A stretch of 5,942 nucleotides of DNA, from contig MGSU01000081.1 of NCBI GenBank assembly GCA_001799195.1, positions 1 through 5,942 of the forward strand. Direction: 5' to 3'. Position 1 is the first letter of the stretch, and each line of letters opens with the position of its first letter. Position numbers and translations under genes: made by a program. The DNA comes from Deltaproteobacteria bacterium RIFOXYA12_FULL_61_11 (GTDB taxonomy: Bacteria; Bdellovibrionota_F; JAHFAK01; YA12-FULL-61-11). The notes below the pieces were generated by a model, which searched no databases, had not been told where the DNA came from, and worked only from the letters and a program-made list of their open reading frames with translations. Of this stretch, positions 1 to 5,942 are shown one piece after another.

Positions 1-159
1 TGGTTGCGGAAACAATTCTCCGGCCGCGCTCTGCCTCCGCAGACGGTCTATTCCGAGGAAGAAATCCTCGAACGCGTGGCCAGCGTGCCCGGGGCCATAG
101 GTTACCTCGCCGCGGACAAGGTCACGGATCGAGTCCGGGTGCTCTTGGTCATTCCGTGA
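1..159 (+). CDS. C-terminal end of a PstS-like periplasmic substrate-binding protein (partial, 5' end outside window)
   Basis: The first 52 codons of the window are open in frame 1 and end in TGA at 157-159. The visible peptide contains WLRKQFSGRALPP early on and GAIGYLAADK near the end. This is the pattern of short PstS-like phosphate/oxyanion-binding (PBP-like) proteins: a Trp/Phe-rich stretch with F-x-G-R-x-x-P-P, followed by a V-x-x-x-P-G-A-I-G-Y strand close to the C-terminus. Such proteins are periplasmic, and the small stand-alone versions often sit beside two-component sensors rather than ABC permeases. The stop codon overlaps the start of the following histidine kinase by 4 nt, so the two are probably co-translated and functionally linked; the protein may present a ligand such as phosphate to the kinase. 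The signal peptide and ligand-binding residues lie outside the window. The family call is by motif only; the ligand is an inference. Confidence 0.72.
   Translation, partial: WLRKQFSGRALPPQTVYSEEEILERVASVPGAIGYLAADKVTDRVRVLLVIP
156..159 (+). promoter_or_regulatory. GTGA stop/start overlap coupling the binding protein to the histidine kinase
   Basis: The GTG start of the kinase (156-158) shares two bases with the TGA stop of the PstS-like protein (157-159). There is no convincing purine-rich ribosome site just upstream of the GTG, which favours re-initiation by ribosomes that finish the first gene. Confidence 0.65.
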
Positions 160-1901
160 GCCTTCTCCGAGTATTGGCCCTGCGTCTCGATCCGCGCGCT
201 CGATCCCTGCGCACCCAACTCATCGCCTTCGTTGTACTCGGAGTTGCCGCCACCTCCCTGGCCTTCTACTCGTACACTGTCGGACAACAGCACCGGCTCT
301 TTGCCGAGGAGTTCGAGCGCAGCACCAAAGCCACGCTGGCAGCAGTGCGGCTGGGTATCGAGATCGGTCTTGGGGAGGAAAACTACGAGAATATCACTCG
401 CGTCCTGGAATGGGCACGGGCCGACGAGCGAGTTGCCTTCATCGTCTTGACCGACCAGGAACGGCAGGTCATCGCGGCCTATCCCGAAGAGTTGCTGAGC
501 CTGATGCCGGCCCAACTCGACGAGTATGAGAAGGACAGTGGTCTTCTTCGGCCGGTTTCGGTACGTTCGACCGAGTGGTTATCGCAGAGAGAGAAAGGAT
601 CCCTATTCATCGGGTTCTCTACCGCGCAGGTCCGGAAACTCGAAGCCCAGGCGCTACGCGATGTCGGGCTCCTTGCCTTGGGCTTTCTCATCTGCTCTAC
701 CCTGATCGCCTATGTTTTTGCCCTGACCATTACCCAGCCCTTGGTCCGCTTGAACAAGGTCGCCAGGGAACTCGCCGACCAGGTATTGAGCACCAGGGCC
801 GATGAGCGGCTCGGGAGCGTCGAGCTGCGTTCTCTGGCCAGGTCATTCAACCGCATGGTCGGCAGGTTGCTCGAGAGTCAGGCTCAGGTGTTCCAATCCG
901 AGAAATTAGCAGCCCTCGGGCAACTGATTGCCGGGATCGCTCACGAAATCAACACCCCGGCCGGCGCGATCGTCGGTGCGATCGGGGAGTTGGATCGGGA
1001 ACATCTGCCCTTGTTGCGCAGTACCCAGACCCTCTTGGCTGCGATACCGCATGAGTTGCATCCTCGCTTCCTACAGGTGTGCGAGCTGGTACTGGCATTG
1101 GAATACGACCTCTCCACGAGGGAGCAGCGCCAGGTTGCCCAAGAGGTCGCGCGTCACCTCGAGGCCATGGGGATCGAGAACGGTAGGGCGCTTTCCCGCA
1201 ACTTGGCCATCGTGGGTCTCCAGACTGGTCATCTCGAGTTGCTCCATCCTCTCTTCATTGCGGTGCCGCCGGCAGACCTCGTCGCGCATCTGCATAGCTT
1301 GGGCATGTCCAGGATCCATGTCCGCGACATCCGGCTGGCCATCTCGCGCATCGCTCAGATCGTCAAGGCGCTCAAACACTATTCCCACCTCGACAGTCAG
1401 GGTTGTGCACCGACCTCTTTGCAGGAGGACCTCGAAAACACCCTGATTATTCTCCACAACAAGCTGAAACGAGCGGTTGAGGTAGTGCGGGAATTCGAAC
1501 CAGTACCGCGCCTGGTTTGCAGGGCTGATCAGCTCAACCAGGTCTGGACCAACCTCATCAACAACGCGGTGCAAGCCATGCGTGGGACCGGTAGACTGAT
1601 CGTCCGGTTGCACGAAGCCGCGGGCAAGGTCGTGGTTGAGATCGAGGACAATGGATCCGGCATTCCACCGGAGGTCCTCCCGCGTATCTTCGAACCCTAT
1701 TTCACCACGAAACCCAAGGGCGAAGGCACTGGGCTTGGATTGTCGATCTCGCGTACCATCATCGAGCAACACCAAGGCACGATCGAGGTCGAGAGTGAGC
1801 CGGGACGGACCTGTTTCAGGGTTCTGTTGGATCCAGAACGGACCGCTTGCCAGAGCGAGCCCCTGCCGCCGATGGACGGGTCTTCAGGCAGCGATTCATA
1901 G
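156..1901 (+). CDS. Membrane-bound sensor histidine kinase (HAMP, DHp with long helical insert, HATPase)
   Basis: This 581-aa protein autophosphorylates on a histidine and passes the phosphate to a response regulator, which is not in this window. Visible parts: membrane helix at about residues 21-42; periplasmic region of about 125 residues (43-168) with a Cache/PAS-like strand near 91-110; second helix at 169-191; HAMP at 190-245, starting with the usual ITQPL; H-box LGQLIAGIAHEINTP with the phospho-acceptor His263 (codon 942-944); N-box NLINNAVQAM at 466-475; G1 DNGSGIP at 498-504; F-box FEPYFTTK at 512-519; G2 GEGTGLGLS at 522-530. All kinase boxes look intact. About 205 residues separate the H-box from the N-box, roughly 100 more than usual, because of a helical insert at about 275-395. 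The start is GTG at 156, overlapping the previous stop (GTGA); no strong Shine-Dalgarno is seen, so coupling is likely. The Ser/Pro-rich last 20 residues look unstructured. The stop overlaps the opposing gene. Confidence 0.95.
   Translation: MSLLRVLALRLDPRARSLRTQLIAFVVLGVAATSLAFYSYTVGQQHRLFAEEFERSTKATLAAVRLGIEIGLGEENYENITRVLEWARADERVAFIVLTDQERQVIAAYPEELLSLMPAQLDEYEKDSGLLRPVSVRSTEWLSQREKGSLFIGFSTAQVRKLEAQALRDVGLLALGFLICSTLIAYVFALTITQPLVRLNKVARELADQVLSTRADERLGSVELRSLARSFNRMVGRLLESQAQVFQSEKLAALGQLIAGIAHEINTPAGAIVGAIGELDREHLPLLRSTQTLLAAIPHELHPRFLQVCELVLALEYDLSTREQRQVAQEVARHLEAMGIENGRALSRNLAIVGLQTGHLELLHPLFIAVPPADLVAHLHSLGMSRIHVRDIRLAISRIAQIVKALKHYSHLDSQGCAPTSLQEDLENTLIILHNKLKRAVEVVREFEPVPRLVCRADQLNQVWTNLINNAVQAMRGTGRLIVRLHEAAGKVVVEIEDNGSGIPPEVLPRIFEPYFTTKPKGEGTGLGLSISRTIIEQHQGTIEVESEPGRTCFRVLLDPERTACQSEPLPPMDGSSGSDS
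978..1340 (+). other. Helical insert inside the DHp domain of the histidine kinase
   Basis: Residues of about 275-395 lie between the phospho-acceptor helix (His263) and the second DHp helix, which I place at ISRIAQIVKALKHYSHLD near 396-413. The insert is Leu/His/Glu-rich and reads as several amphipathic helices, with a motif VARHLEAMGIENGRAL near 331-346. From memory, a family of sensor kinases common in cyanobacteria has a similar insert, with an R/K-rich helix, an 'L-x-x-x-G-I' turn and then a 'K-I-V-x-A-L-K-x-Y' second DHp helix; this kinase follows that plan. The boundaries are by eye. Its role is unknown; a dimerisation or signal-input function is an inference. Confidence 0.65.
1896..1901. 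other. Tail-to-tail overlap of the two convergent transcription units
   Basis: The kinase stop TAG (1899-1901) and the enolase-homologue stop TGA (1898-1896 on the minus strand) lie in the same six bases TCATAG. There is no intergenic space for a terminator, and I see no GC hairpin followed by a T run just inside either gene. Transcripts from the two strands are therefore likely to overlap. Confidence 0.85.
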
Positions 1902-3470
1902 CTCAGTGCCCGCGGCGCCGAAGAGCCGAGTTCCTCGCGAGGAGGGATGGTGGGTCTGGCGCAGTGAAGCGATGATGGGTTCGTAGAATGCCTCGTCGCA
2001 GAGGGTCAACCCATCCCTGTCGAGCTTTTGACCGGCTTCACGAAGACTGAGCCAGGAAGGCTTCCCCTCTTTGACGGCTATCAACCGGTTATAGGCAACG
2101 GTGATGCCGAGCAGGGTGTTGGCCCCGAGACAGCGCTTGAGTTCGGCAGCTTCCTGGAGCTTCCCGACCGAGTCGTCGGGTTTGATCTGGCCAATGCGCG
2201 AAGCTTCTTGCAGCTCGGTCGCGAGTAACCGTTGGGTGAGAGTCAGTTGATCGGGTACATCCCCGAGGCGCATGCCCACGAGATGTAATTCCGAGACGAG
2301 TTGGTCTACGTTCCTGACCGCGTCGACGACCGGCACGAGGCAGGCTTCCGTTTCACCGGTGGACGTCCCGGCCGGAACCACAGCGTTGATCTCGAAACCG
2401 TTGGAGAGGCGAATTCTCACCCCGAGGGTCAGGTCACCCGTGTTCAGTGGGGCGGGGTAGCCCTTGAACATCTGGATCCTGGTGTCCGGCGAGAGAGGTT
2501 CGAACAGGGCCACGCCTGCGGCGAAGTCCTCGACCCATTGTTGGGCCATAGCATACCGCATTGCGCGTTCGATCAACTTGGCGCCGCCCCACTTCGCAAA
2601 AACGCAACGGCCCAACCCAGGACGGCGCAAAGAAAGCGCGAGGGCTACCTCTACCTCCATGAAGTCGATCGAGGAGGTCGAGCGGTGAGAACTGATAGTC
2701 AACCACCCGGCATGGTGGGCGGTTTCTGCCGCGCGCCAGCCTTCGAGCATGGTGCCGATTTGATTCATCTTCAGGAGTAGCATGTTGCCGGTTTTCTCGG
2801 CAATCAACGGACGGACCAAGCGGGCATTGGTGGTGGCTACGTCGTCGAGGGAAACAAAAACCCTCTCGCCGAAACGGGAGGTGAACTCCGACCAATGTCG
2901 CCAGGCCTCCTTCCGGCTGGCGAAAAGATCCTCGGCATAGAGGATAGGATAGGTATCGAGCATGGACTCATAGTATTCCATGAGCTGCATGGTATCGAAG
3001 CTCCTTCCATCCAACTCATAGACACCATTGCCTTTGTAAAAACGATCGGCCGCGCCGTCCACGCCGAAACACACCTCGCGCCCCAACGTGTAACCCGCTT
3101 CCTCGACGGCTTCAGCCAGGATTTTCCAAGCTCCCAACTCCCCCCAGGAGCGGAAGAAGGCGCCGATGCCGCCCTCGTTGCACGTGCCCATCACCCGCAT
3201 CCCTTCTTTACTGAAGATCAAGTTCATGGCTACATCTTGAATGGTGTTGGCCATTTCTTGGTTCGTACGCATGTCGTAGGTCAGGGGGATGAGGTGCCGT
3301 TCCTGGATGGACAGGTCCGACATCACGTATTTGAGGGTGCGGTTGCCGACCTTGGCCTTGATGACCCCGTGGGCTCCGCCCTGGATGGTGTTGCGCACCG
3401 GGAGGGGCACCGTTATTTCGATACCGTCGCGGCAGGCGGTGGTGGGTAAAGGGATGGAGTATTCGCTCAT
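1896..3470 (-). CDS. Circularly permuted enolase homologue (catalytic barrel first, N-terminal-type domain last)
   Basis: Enolase interconverts 2-phosphoglycerate and phosphoenolpyruvate. This 524-aa protein (enolases are about 430 aa) has both enolase domains in reversed order. Residues 20-315 match the TIM barrel: LPVRNTIQGGAH at 23-34, SIQE with Glu57, CNEGG with Glu99, VDGAADRFY with Asp138, PILYAED with Glu180, SLDDVATTN with Asp209/210, LLLKMNQIGT with Lys234, SSHRS with His262/Arg263/Ser264, and AKWGGAKLIERAMRY with Lys293. These align with yeast enolase His159, Glu168, Glu211, Asp246, Glu295, Asp320, Lys345, His373-Ser375 and Lys396. After a linker (about 316-340), residues 341-478 match the domain normally at the N-terminus: VVPAGTSTGETEA at 364-376, with Ser370 aligning with yeast Ser39, and LGANTLLGITVAYN at 448-461. 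A 45-residue tail follows. The start is ATG 3470, overlapping the upstream stop (ATGA) behind a GGGGG run 5 nt away; a longer frame from 3560 adds 30 low-complexity residues inside the neighbour and is rejected. Whether the substrate is 2-phosphoglycerate is unknown: the loop after His262 (STSSID versus SGETED) differs. Confidence 0.88.
   Translation of the reverse strand: MSEYSIPLPTTACRDGIEITVPLPVRNTIQGGAHGVIKAKVGNRTLKYVMSDLSIQERHLIPLTYDMRTNQEMANTIQDVAMNLIFSKEGMRVMGTCNEGGIGAFFRSWGELGAWKILAEAVEEAGYTLGREVCFGVDGAADRFYKGNGVYELDGRSFDTMQLMEYYESMLDTYPILYAEDLFASRKEAWRHWSEFTSRFGERVFVSLDDVATTNARLVRPLIAEKTGNMLLLKMNQIGTMLEGWRAAETAHHAGWLTISSHRSTSSIDFMEVEVALALSLRRPGLGRCVFAKWGGAKLIERAMRYAMAQQWVEDFAAGVALFEPLSPDTRIQMFKGYPAPLNTGDLTLGVRIRLSNGFEINAVVPAGTSTGETEACLVPVVDAVRNVDQLVSELHLVGMRLGDVPDQLTLTQRLLATELQEASRIGQIKPDDSVGKLQEAAELKRCLGANTLLGITVAYNRLIAVKEGKPSWLSLREAGQKLDRDGLTLCDEAFYEPIIASLRQTHHPSSRGTRLFGAAGTEL
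2031..2450 (-). other. Relocated enolase 'N-terminal' alpha+beta domain at the C-terminus of the permuted protein
   Basis: Residues of about 341-480 contain, in the correct internal order, a beta hairpin (LTLGVRIRLSNGFEINAVVP, like the enolase strand pair before the mobile loop), the mobile loop AGTSTGETEA (consensus SGASTGxxEA), the AVRNVDQLV helix (consensus AVxNVNxxI), a 20-30 residue variable helical region, and the closing helix CLGANTLLGITVAY (consensus LGANAILGVSLA) running to GKPSWLSLREAG (consensus GLPLYRYLGG). The consensus DSRGNPT start of this domain is degenerate, appearing as PLNTGDLTL at about 341-349. Confidence 0.82.
3467..3470 (-). promoter_or_regulatory. ATGA stop/start overlap coupling membrane protein and permuted enolase
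   Basis: On the minus strand the ATG of the enolase homologue (3470-3468) overlaps the TGA of the membrane protein (3469-3467). A GGGGG run at 3480-3476, inside the last codons of the membrane protein, leaves 5 nt to the ATG and can act as a modest ribosome site. This decides the enolase start and argues for coupled, roughly equal expression of the two proteins. Confidence 0.75.
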
Positions 3471-4399
3471 GCTTGCCCCCGTTGTTCCAGATGACGCTTC
3501 ACCTCGCTCAAGTCGAAGCCGTGGACACGTTCGTGTCGGGTCCCTGTCTGGGCTTTCCACTGCTCGACGACTGCGGTTTTATAGGCTCCACGGCCGGTGA
3601 GAAAGGTCCCCAGAAGAGAAATACAGCAGAGCGGTACGGTAATTCTCACGAGCAGCTCGAAGCCCTTTGGAAGAGGCGGGATCGATCCGTTCGAGGCCAA
3701 GACCGCGAGCATGACGAGTGGGGCGGCAAGGGCAAGGGCACCAAGAGCCACCGGGCGATCCCACCTGCCGGGTCCTGCTGCACTGACCGCGATCGGAGCC
3801 TCTCCGTCGAGCCGGTAGGAGAGACCGGTCTTGAGCACTCCCGGGAAAGTACCAAAGGGTAACCCGAGGAGTTGACCGATGAGGCGTCCCTTGCCGACGA
3901 TACCCTTGCTGAGCAATTCGTCCCAACGGACTTCGACATGTTCGGAGAGGTTGTTGGTCCGGTATGCTCGGAGAGCGACACTGCCCATGTGCCCGACGAT
4001 CATGCAATAGGTGAGGAACAGGGCGATGCCTGCGGAACTGCTGAGTTCGACAAGGTAGAAGAGGGCCGGATTCTCGAGAGCCTCTTGCAAGAAGGCAGGG
4101 AAGAGCAAACCGCTGACGAAGGCAAAGTGAAAGGCGAAGCCGAAATAGCCGCTGCCGATGAATTCACCCTCGAGCGTGGCGCTGTGGTTACCAGCAACTC
4201 TCGAGTAGAGAGCTTCTCGGTAACACGTATATCCGGCTTGTCGTGCGGATCGGTCGAGGAAACCAGTCGCATTAGGCGGTGCAGCATTCTTGCGCGTGGT
4301 GGACAGGAGTGCTTGGAGGCCGAGGAGCGCGTGCCCGAGAAGCCACGAGCGCGAAGAGAGCATCACGAGGCGGTGGAGAGGGGAAATGGTGAGTGGCAT
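3467..4399 (-). CDS. Integral membrane protein of unknown family, about four helices
   Basis: I do not recognise this 310-aa protein. Clear hydrophobic segments lie at about 84-104 (aromatic-rich, FGFAFHFAFVSGLLFPAF), 113-140, 216-236 and 248-268; a weaker one near 10-32 may be amphipathic or a membrane anchor. Positive charges cluster before the first strong helix, in the 141-215 loop and in the 270-310 tail, so the best model is four helices with both ends and the long central loop in the cytoplasm. The segment GEFIGSGYFGF at 78-88 and a Gly-rich stretch at 166-190 (GIVGKGRLIGQLLGLPFG) could be functional loops. The charged tail (HERVHGFDLSEVKRHLEQ) looks like a cytoplasmic helix. The start is ATG 4399 with AGGAGG 7 nt upstream; a frame open back to 4543 would add 48 residues with no membrane or domain signal, overlapping the gene upstream. 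It sits between a PEP-synthase-like protein and the permuted enolase, so a membrane anchor or transporter for their substrate is plausible but unproven. Confidence 0.85.
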   Translation of the reverse strand: MPLTISPLHRLVMLSSRSWLLGHALLGLQALLSTTRKNAAPPNATGFLDRSARQAGYTCYREALYSRVAGNHSATLEGEFIGSGYFGFAFHFAFVSGLLFPAFLQEALENPALFYLVELSSSAGIALFLTYCMIVGHMGSVALRAYRTNNLSEHVEVRWDELLSKGIVGKGRLIGQLLGLPFGTFPGVLKTGLSYRLDGEAPIAVSAAGPGRWDRPVALGALALAAPLVMLAVLASNGSIPPLPKGFELLVRITVPLCCISLLGTFLTGRGAYKTAVVEQWKAQTGTRHERVHGFDLSEVKRHLEQRGQA

Positions 4400-4406
4400 G
4401 GCATGC

Positions 4407-4412
4407 CCTCCT
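4407..4412 (-). promoter_or_regulatory. Ribosome binding site AGGAGG for the membrane protein
   Basis: A perfect AGGAGG lies in the 20-nt gap between the stop of the PEP-synthase-like gene (4420) and ATG 4399, with a 7-nt spacer. It is the best Shine-Dalgarno seen among the gene starts in the window and rules out the longer start at 4543. An overlapping ATG 5 nt upstream of the chosen one is in another frame. Confidence 0.85.
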
Positions 4413-4419
4413 GGGTTGT

Positions 4420-5942
4420 TCACACGTCGTCGGGTCCTGGTATTGGCAGGTTCTCCTGTTCGCACAACCGACGTAATTGGCCGAGGGACCAGGCAGAATT
4501 GAATTGGAAGAAGGTCTTGTAGGGGGAGAGGAGCAAGGTACACAGCTCGACGACCCTGTGATCATGGGTTTCTGCGGCAGTCATGACCTCATGGAGGTCT
4601 ATTCCGGCCAGCTTGAGGGTGAGGAGATGCTTGACCCGGCCGGGATGCAAAGTAAAGGTGGCCGGGAGGTCGTCTCCAAGTCGTTTTTTTGCCTGATTGA
4701 GGTTTCTCTCCCCCACCTCGGTCAGGACGTCCATGTATTGCTCGAAATGCAGCCACTCGTTCAGCAGGGTGGCGATTTCCGAAGAGGAAAAGGATTTCCA
4801 GAAGCGAACGGGATGGGGCGAGGCAAGGAAACGGCCGAGGACGAAGCATCCGGCACCCAGGCCGGAGCGCCCCTCTTGGCGACTCTTGGCGAGTGCGGAG
4901 TGGAAGAAGGAGACCTGTCTATCGAGGGTGAGCAAGAGGTAAATAGTGTGCTGATTGAGATGAGCGCCCATCTCACAGGCGAAGACCTCCTCGAGGTAGC
5001 GTTGGGGGTACTGGTCGAACCATTCGTTGACCGTGCGGCTTCGCTCGTGCTCGTCGTCGAGGTCGAAACGCACCAACCGGACGAGATCGCGGATACCGTT
5101 GATCTGGCGCAGCTCGAGGTGACTGACCAGTTCTTGATATTCGCGATACGCCTCAGCCACGGCCGGGAAAAGGTTCTCTTCTCCCGGGTCGAGGTGCACT
5201 TTTTCGCCGTTCATGTAGCGCAGCAGCCTGCCGGGCTGGTATTCAGCGCGCCCCAGGTACAGGGTTTGCCGACGGCTGGAAACCGTGACCCAGTCGCCTT
5301 CGAGGATGCGGACTCCTTTGGTATTGACCAGACAACGTCCACCTCGGTCGTCAACCGCGGCAAAGTAGTTTCCATACCGTTCCATATTGAGCAGGGCGGG
5401 TATTCCGAAACCTTGGCAGAGAGTGACCACGTGGATGGCCGCAGGGGTGCCACAGACGATGGCATCCATCTCGCGCATGATCACGGTATCCGAGGGTTGG
5501 AAAGACTGTTTGAAATAACAGACCTTCTCTCCACGCCTCTTGGCAGCCAGGACAGTTTCGGCAGAGAAGTACGCCCTGCCCGTTACCGCGGTGCGGGGGA
5601 GTACGGAAACCCCCTGGCTGAAGACCTGCAGGGAGGTGAGGCTGCTTGGTGAAATGGTGTCGGATTCCATTTGGGTGAAGTGATAGGGGCGGATCAGCTC
5701 GAGCACTCGCTGCCGGGTGATGATCCCCCGACGGTAGAGATTCATGATTGCCAGGAAGGCTGCTCTGCCGGAGAGCTCCGAGCAATTGAGCTGCAGCAGG
5801 GCAAAACAGTCGTAACGACCCGTGGTCTCAACCGCGAACTCGAGGGTCACGGGCGAGCGGAAGTGTTCCTCAAGGCGGGGTAGGTTCGGACAGAAATAGC
5901 TGACTCCCGGGAAGGCAGCCGCGAGGTCCTCTTGTCGTTCGA
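4420..5942 (-). CDS. PPDK/PEP-synthase-like phosphotransfer protein: ATP-grasp end, phosphohistidine domain, novel C-terminus (partial, 5' end outside window)
   Basis: Pyruvate phosphate dikinase and PEP synthase move a phosphate from ATP to a swivelling-domain histidine and then to pyruvate on a TIM barrel. The frame stays open from the stop at 4420 to the window edge (506 complete codons), so the GTG at 5850 is probably internal. Counting from the edge, residues 20-52 (LPRLEEHFRSP, then LEFAVE and FALLQLN) match the end of the PPDK ATP-grasp domain (LE-x-x-x-R-D-x-x-D-I-E-F-T-I-E ... LQTR). About 58-100 is the linker, with YRRGIITRQRVLELI like VEEGLITKEEAL. About 110-230 is the swivelling domain: RGEKVCYFKQSFQPSD, then GTPAAIH with candidate phosphohistidine His170 (codon 5433-5431), then GFGIPALLN and EGDWVTV near its end. 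About 235-506 is helical and charged, ends in PIPGPDDV, and resembles no PEP-binding barrel. The Arg of the ATP-site QTR is Asn here and the GGMTSH loop is altered, so activity may be changed. Rifampin phosphotransferase is a precedent for such enzymes without a PEP barrel. Confidence 0.8.
   Translation of the reverse strand, partial: ERQEDLAAAFPGVSYFCPNLPRLEEHFRSPVTLEFAVETTGRYDCFALLQLNCSELSGRAAFLAIMNLYRRGIITRQRVLELIRPYHFTQMESDTISPSSLTSLQVFSQGVSVLPRTAVTGRAYFSAETVLAAKRRGEKVCYFKQSFQPSDTVIMREMDAIVCGTPAAIHVVTLCQGFGIPALLNMERYGNYFAAVDDRGGRCLVNTKGVRILEGDWVTVSSRRQTLYLGRAEYQPGRLLRYMNGEKVHLDPGEENLFPAVAEAYREYQELVSHLELRQINGIRDLVRLVRFDLDDEHERSRTVNEWFDQYPQRYLEEVFACEMGAHLNQHTIYLLLTLDRQVSFFHSALAKSRQEGRSGLGAGCFVLGRFLASPHPVRFWKSFSSSEIATLLNEWLHFEQYMDVLTEVGERNLNQAKKRLGDDLPATFTLHPGRVKHLLTLKLAGIDLHEVMTAAETHDHRVVELCTLLLSPYKTFFQFNSAWSLGQLRRLCEQENLPIPGPDDV

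Follow-up and report, generated by a model that had tools for sequence, protein, structure and literature searches.

Enolase is a near-universal enzyme of glycolysis that interconverts 2-phosphoglycerate with phosphoenolpyruvate and water. The protein described here shares with enolase (TIGR01060; PF03952 plus PF00113) both domains, all 12 active-site residues compared and the predicted fold of each part, but differs from it in a reversed domain order, an identity of only about 30%, a new linker, an FYEPI tail, a shortened N-domain loop, a link to a membrane protein and a score under the equivalog cut-off. Enzymes of the mandelate racemase and muconate lactonizing types also have an N-terminal capping domain and a barrel, but the barrel found here scores to enolase proper and keeps the KxNQIG and SHRS motifs. 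Natural permutants that keep their fold have been described for eukaryotic glutathione synthetase (PMC2876114) and for a permutated MalS amylase (PMC10223318). Neither of these is an enolase, and in the present case the permutant appears to replace a core glycolytic gene. A search of the literature on enolase and circular permutation, mostly outside subscription papers, found no permuted enolase described; a preliminary description of this locus knew of none either.

The window (the whole stretch of 5942 nt that was analysed) carries the features collected in Table 1.

Table 1. Features of the permuted enolase locus, in window coordinates
Feature	Positions	Strand	Basis or remarks
Circularly permuted enolase ORF	1896..3470	-	524 aa, ATG...TGA, zero internal stops
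C-terminal tail (aa 479-524)	1899..2036	-	Alignment with homologues; FYEPI (aa 495-499) common to all
Enolase N-terminal domain, second in chain (aa 332-478)	2037..2477	-	Pfam; hhalign; model pLDDT 83; Z 12-13
New linker from canonical C-terminus to canonical N-terminus (aa 317-331)	2478..2522	-	Natural-order alignment
Enolase TIM-barrel domain, first in chain (aa 19-316)	2523..3416	-	Pfam; VIA-align Z 32.7; hhalign 99.9%
ATGA stop-start overlap of membrane gene and permuted enolase	3467..3470	-	Sequence
Membrane protein, about 4 hydrophobic segments	3467..4399	-	Homologous to N-terminal membrane part of fused homologues
AGGAGG ribosome-binding-like site upstream of membrane-protein ATG	4407..4412	-	Sequence

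The preliminary description, made from the sequence, had proposed that the enolase barrel comes first in this protein and the N-terminal domain second, and had named a missing Enolase_N match as fatal to the proposal. Pfam profiles do fall in the swapped order, with Enolase_C at residues 19-279 (121 bits against a cut-off of 21.5, E = 7.2e-35) and an Enolase_N match at residues 345-471 (27.1 bits, E = 5.4e-6) that stays below the curated cut-off of 35. Among PDB sequences, the window protein aligns with Legionella enolase in two parts, residues 14-279 with 142-389 and, weakly, residues 344-477 with 23-142; all of the PDB sequence matches listed are named enolase or phosphopyruvate hydratase. 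When the halves were compared by BLAST with 51 canonical enolases, the barrel half matched every one and the non-barrel half matched 41 (E <= 0.01), the latter aligning, among the matches listed, from canonical residue 4-18 onward. When residues 322-524 were set against 14 canonical N-domains in a profile-profile comparison (hhalign), the probability was 96% and the E-value 2e-9. Because the Pfam, PDB-sequence, half-by-half and profile-profile matches agree, the swapped domain order is real and beyond chance; fold comparison and six further genomes, both treated below, bear out the proposed order as well.

The domain order is fixed in the canonical enolases examined, with the N-domain before the barrel, and is reversed in the window protein and its six homologues. 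The chain starts just ahead of the barrel segment PLPVRNTIQGGAH, the last barrel helix ends at about residue 316, and about 15 new residues lead into the first N-domain strand; a linker of 25 residues had been expected beforehand, and that figure has to be reduced. The loop that bears ELRDGD in canonical enolase is shortened. The protein has what characterizes a circular permutant, namely homology in both domains, joined canonical termini and new termini between the canonical domains. Rearranged to the natural order, it aligns end to end over both canonical enolase domains, and its identity to any canonical enolase is only about 30%. Its NCBIfam score against TIGR01060 (156.6 bits) misses the equivalog cut-off of 300, since a collinear profile is unable to score the whole permuted chain. 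In view of the domain order and the two curated cut-offs that are not reached, the protein is filed as an enolase-related variant, outside the collinear enolase equivalog.

Homologues were sought with the linker-plus-N-domain half as query. In 386 genomes picked as relatives of the window genome (G000), this half found itself only (0/385 others), and in 376 genomes of another phylum, that of G245, it gave six matches (33-37% identical, E-values of 6e-28 to 2e-32). All six homologues share the permuted order with the window protein (30-34% identity, E ~1e-56 to 1e-64), so that same-order genes in other genomes, which the preliminary description had thought worth seeking, do exist. Five of them align from window residue 15-19 to 500, and the sixth, at a contig end, from residue 77; the five longer ones are the G439 copy itself or are 81-85% identical to it. 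All belong to a single class (31 genomes), within which they are spread over four families; the mfd-mazG-eno neighbourhood hints that this class may belong to Actinomycetota. A tree that includes canonical enolases places the permuted sequences together beyond one supported branch, on very long branches, which allows a single origin of the permuted enolases. A scan of genome contigs for exact peptides of the window protein returned canonical enolases alone, and plasmid, phage and viral collections yielded no permuted homologue.

No N-domain lies ahead of the barrel. What lies upstream of the permuted ORF, as the preliminary description had it, is a membrane-protein gene; it runs in the same direction, and its TGA overlaps the enolase ATG by 4 nt. 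Four homologues have complete frames, and in each the barrel follows, within one ORF, roughly 300 residues containing hydrophobic segments; a fifth, truncated at a contig end, retains part of the fused membrane region. The fused membrane part of four homologues matches the upstream protein of the window at E-values of 1e-11 to 1e-14; a search for relatives of the membrane domain in Pfam and PDB sequences found none. Since the homologues carry the membrane part and the permuted enolase in a single frame, the membrane protein can be taken to belong with the permuted enolase as one unit, a link that the preliminary description had not made. The same in-frame fusions (four complete, and the one cut at a contig end), along with an overlap of only 4 nt between the two frames of the window, could also mean that a single-base indel in the draft has broken what is in truth one fused gene. 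We hold this to be unlikely: a stop and a start coupled through ATGA are quite ordinary, and the fused homologues have a longer segment between the domains than the window does.

The structure-prediction alignments had canonical enolase fragments as their rows, and the models are therefore not independent of sequence homology. Canonical N-domain fragments aligned directly landed wrongly on the barrel, and an in-register subset was used for the whole-chain model. In this AlphaFold2 model the barrel is well predicted, most block means for residues 21-260 lying at 70-96; confidence drops below 50 past residue 307, a stretch that includes S370, which the preliminary description expects near the metal site. 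Modelled residues 20-313 superpose on residues 148-421 of Legionella enolase (VIA-align Z of 32.7, rmsd 2.1, 265 residues aligned), and the barrel model overall corresponds to enolase residues ~141-421. As the whole-chain model is weak beyond residue 307, the N-domain was folded alone; residues 322-488 gave three strands followed by helices (pLDDT 83, pTM 0.78). Among the matches listed for this lone model there are enolases only, over approximately residues 1-139 and with a top Z of 13.0; they include 4rop (chain residues 5-139, Z 11.7) and 3tqp (chain residues 2-132, Z 11.7, rmsd 2.4). Modelled and compared one at a time, the barrel and the C-terminal part thus each resemble the enolase segment expected from the swapped order.

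We propose that the chain runs from the barrel through the canonical C-terminus and the linker into the canonical N-terminal domain, which would fold back on the barrel and so let S370 join the metal and catalytic residues there. Canonical enolases are dimers or octamers, and the N-domain might instead pack against a partner subunit's barrel in a domain swap, the protein then working only as an oligomer. The shortness of the linker and the failure of the whole-chain model to give a docked state speak for such a swap. In canonical enolase the termini lie within one subunit, and here they are joined by the linker, which speaks against the swap; we rate it as rather improbable.

The window protein keeps all 12 enolase active-site residues that were checked, as do the five homologues whose enolase part is full-length. 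The equivalents of yeast S39, H159, E168, E211, D246 and E295 are S370, H34, E57, E99, D138 and E180, and those of D320, K345, H373, R374, S375 and K396 are D209, K234, H262, R263, S264 and K293; the residue roles and the numbering are those usual for yeast enolase. The Ser39-type loop (PAGTSTGE), with S370, sits in the second, N-terminal-type domain. Separately, a Terriglobia sequence (L007:977-2263, plus strand) encodes an enolase-like protein of canonical order that has SARS in place of SHRS, without the His, and QDF in place of QEF; it may be a divergent paralogue.

The window genome also carries an intact canonical eno gene, on contig C118; the preliminary description had suggested looking for such a gene. 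The permuted enzyme would then be a second enolase copy in this organism. Its role there is less certain because the intact canonical enolase is present, and for the same reason enolase activity is not required of the permuted protein in that genome. Beyond the membrane-protein gene lies a gene for a PPDK-like protein of 896 aa (window 4420-5942, minus strand, running on to L028:7110), which has weak matches to ATP-grasp (ATP-binding) and swivel domains; a match to the PEP barrel was not found, and the position of the catalytic His of the swivel domain is apparently not conserved. A paralogue 52% identical to it lies on contig C7 (L047:6367-9162, plus strand) with no enolase beside it, and the stretches examined around the permuted homologues contain no PPDK-like gene. 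The PPDK-like neighbour was therefore rejected as part of a conserved unit. The genes farther on encode DUF4178, aconitase-family, HhH-GPD glycosylase, LD-carboxypeptidase and ABC-transporter (Wzt-type) proteins. The aconitase-family protein (L028:8102-9943, minus strand; 613 aa) has the large and C-terminal domains and is encoded upstream of the permuted enolase, a few genes away. On the other side, a gene for a HAMP-containing sensor histidine kinase (window 156-1901, plus strand) converges on the permuted enolase gene, their ends overlapping by a few bases.

In the class with the permuted homologues, a canonical enolase is present in 23 of the 25 genomes that lack the permuted gene; in 22 of these the recovered sequence shows 12/12 active-site residues, and in the remaining one two fragments jointly show them. 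In G473 and G695, of the same class (completeness 94% and 82%), neither kind of enolase was found and PGK is present. The six carriers are draft genomes, and PGK was found in all of them. In five (completeness 97, 94, 92, 85 and 84%) there was no canonical Enolase_N match, nor any Enolase_C match besides the permuted gene; the chance of five such joint losses by missing data alone is ~3e-6, with each treated as independent. The sixth carrier, G439, has one canonical-order enolase (L144:5263-6597, minus strand), on the same 1.1-Mb contig as its permuted gene. It groups with those of its classmates in the tree and lies at the ancestral mfd-ppiC-mazG-eno-pyk (pyruvate kinase) locus, as in G666 and G494. 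Of its 12 site residues, H159 is missing and six more are substituted (E168A, E211D, D320G, K345S, H373N and R374L), seven in all. An intact canonical enolase is thus present in 0/6 carriers against 23/25 of the others (Fisher P = 3.8e-5, an indicative value, since related genomes are not independent).

That canonical eno is missing or decayed in the carriers suggests that the permuted, membrane-attached form has replaced the housekeeping enolase. Most simply read, the enolase step of the carrier class would be supplied by the permuted gene, and the old gene would have been freed from selection. We consider it reasonably likely that a membrane-bound permuted enolase took the place of the ancestral cytosolic one in members of this class, the old gene being lost or decaying and a core glycolytic step now being sited at the membrane.

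A different role for the permuted protein, as an enzyme or pseudoenzyme of the enolase superfamily with, for instance, a function in regulation or connected with PEP alongside the PPDK-like neighbour, would suit the intact canonical eno of the window genome, the degenerate domains of that neighbour and the long divergence of the permuted sequences. We give such a role a low probability, as it would have to accommodate both the retention of all 12 active-site residues, including the equivalents of K345, H373-R374-S375 and K396, and the carriers of the other phylum, which are without an intact canonical enolase. That assembly or binning produced the order by joining two pieces of normal enolase, a danger raised by the preliminary description and by the state of the draft genome (342 contigs, with an N gap just past the window), is a reading that the homologues already refute and that we regard as negligible: the frame is uninterrupted across the junction, identity to any canonical enolase is only ~30%, six other genomes have the identical permuted order, and the G439 copy is inside a 1.1-Mb contig that also carries the decayed canonical eno.

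The window thus encodes a genuine, conserved and natural permutant of enolase that is most likely catalytically active and attached to the membrane. To the full reading, that it is a natural circular permutant of a true enolase, associated with the membrane, serving as a second enolase in the window organism and as the housekeeping replacement in the other class, we assign a probability of about 0.83. The new N-terminus would be the point of attachment to the membrane domain, fused in the homologues and encoded by a separate coupled gene in the window, and this attachment makes it probable that the enzyme acts at the membrane. Within a single class of another phylum, the permuted enzyme would have taken over the housekeeping enolase step, presumably by horizontal transfer.

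If the permuted protein is the sole enolase of some genomes, the chain of a core metabolic enzyme can be reordered without loss of its function in the cell. The carrier class would offer a clear example of one gene replacing another, in which the old copy is seen to decay at its original site, and it suggests that a glycolytic step is tethered to the membrane. Annotation by collinear matches may report such genomes as being without enolase.
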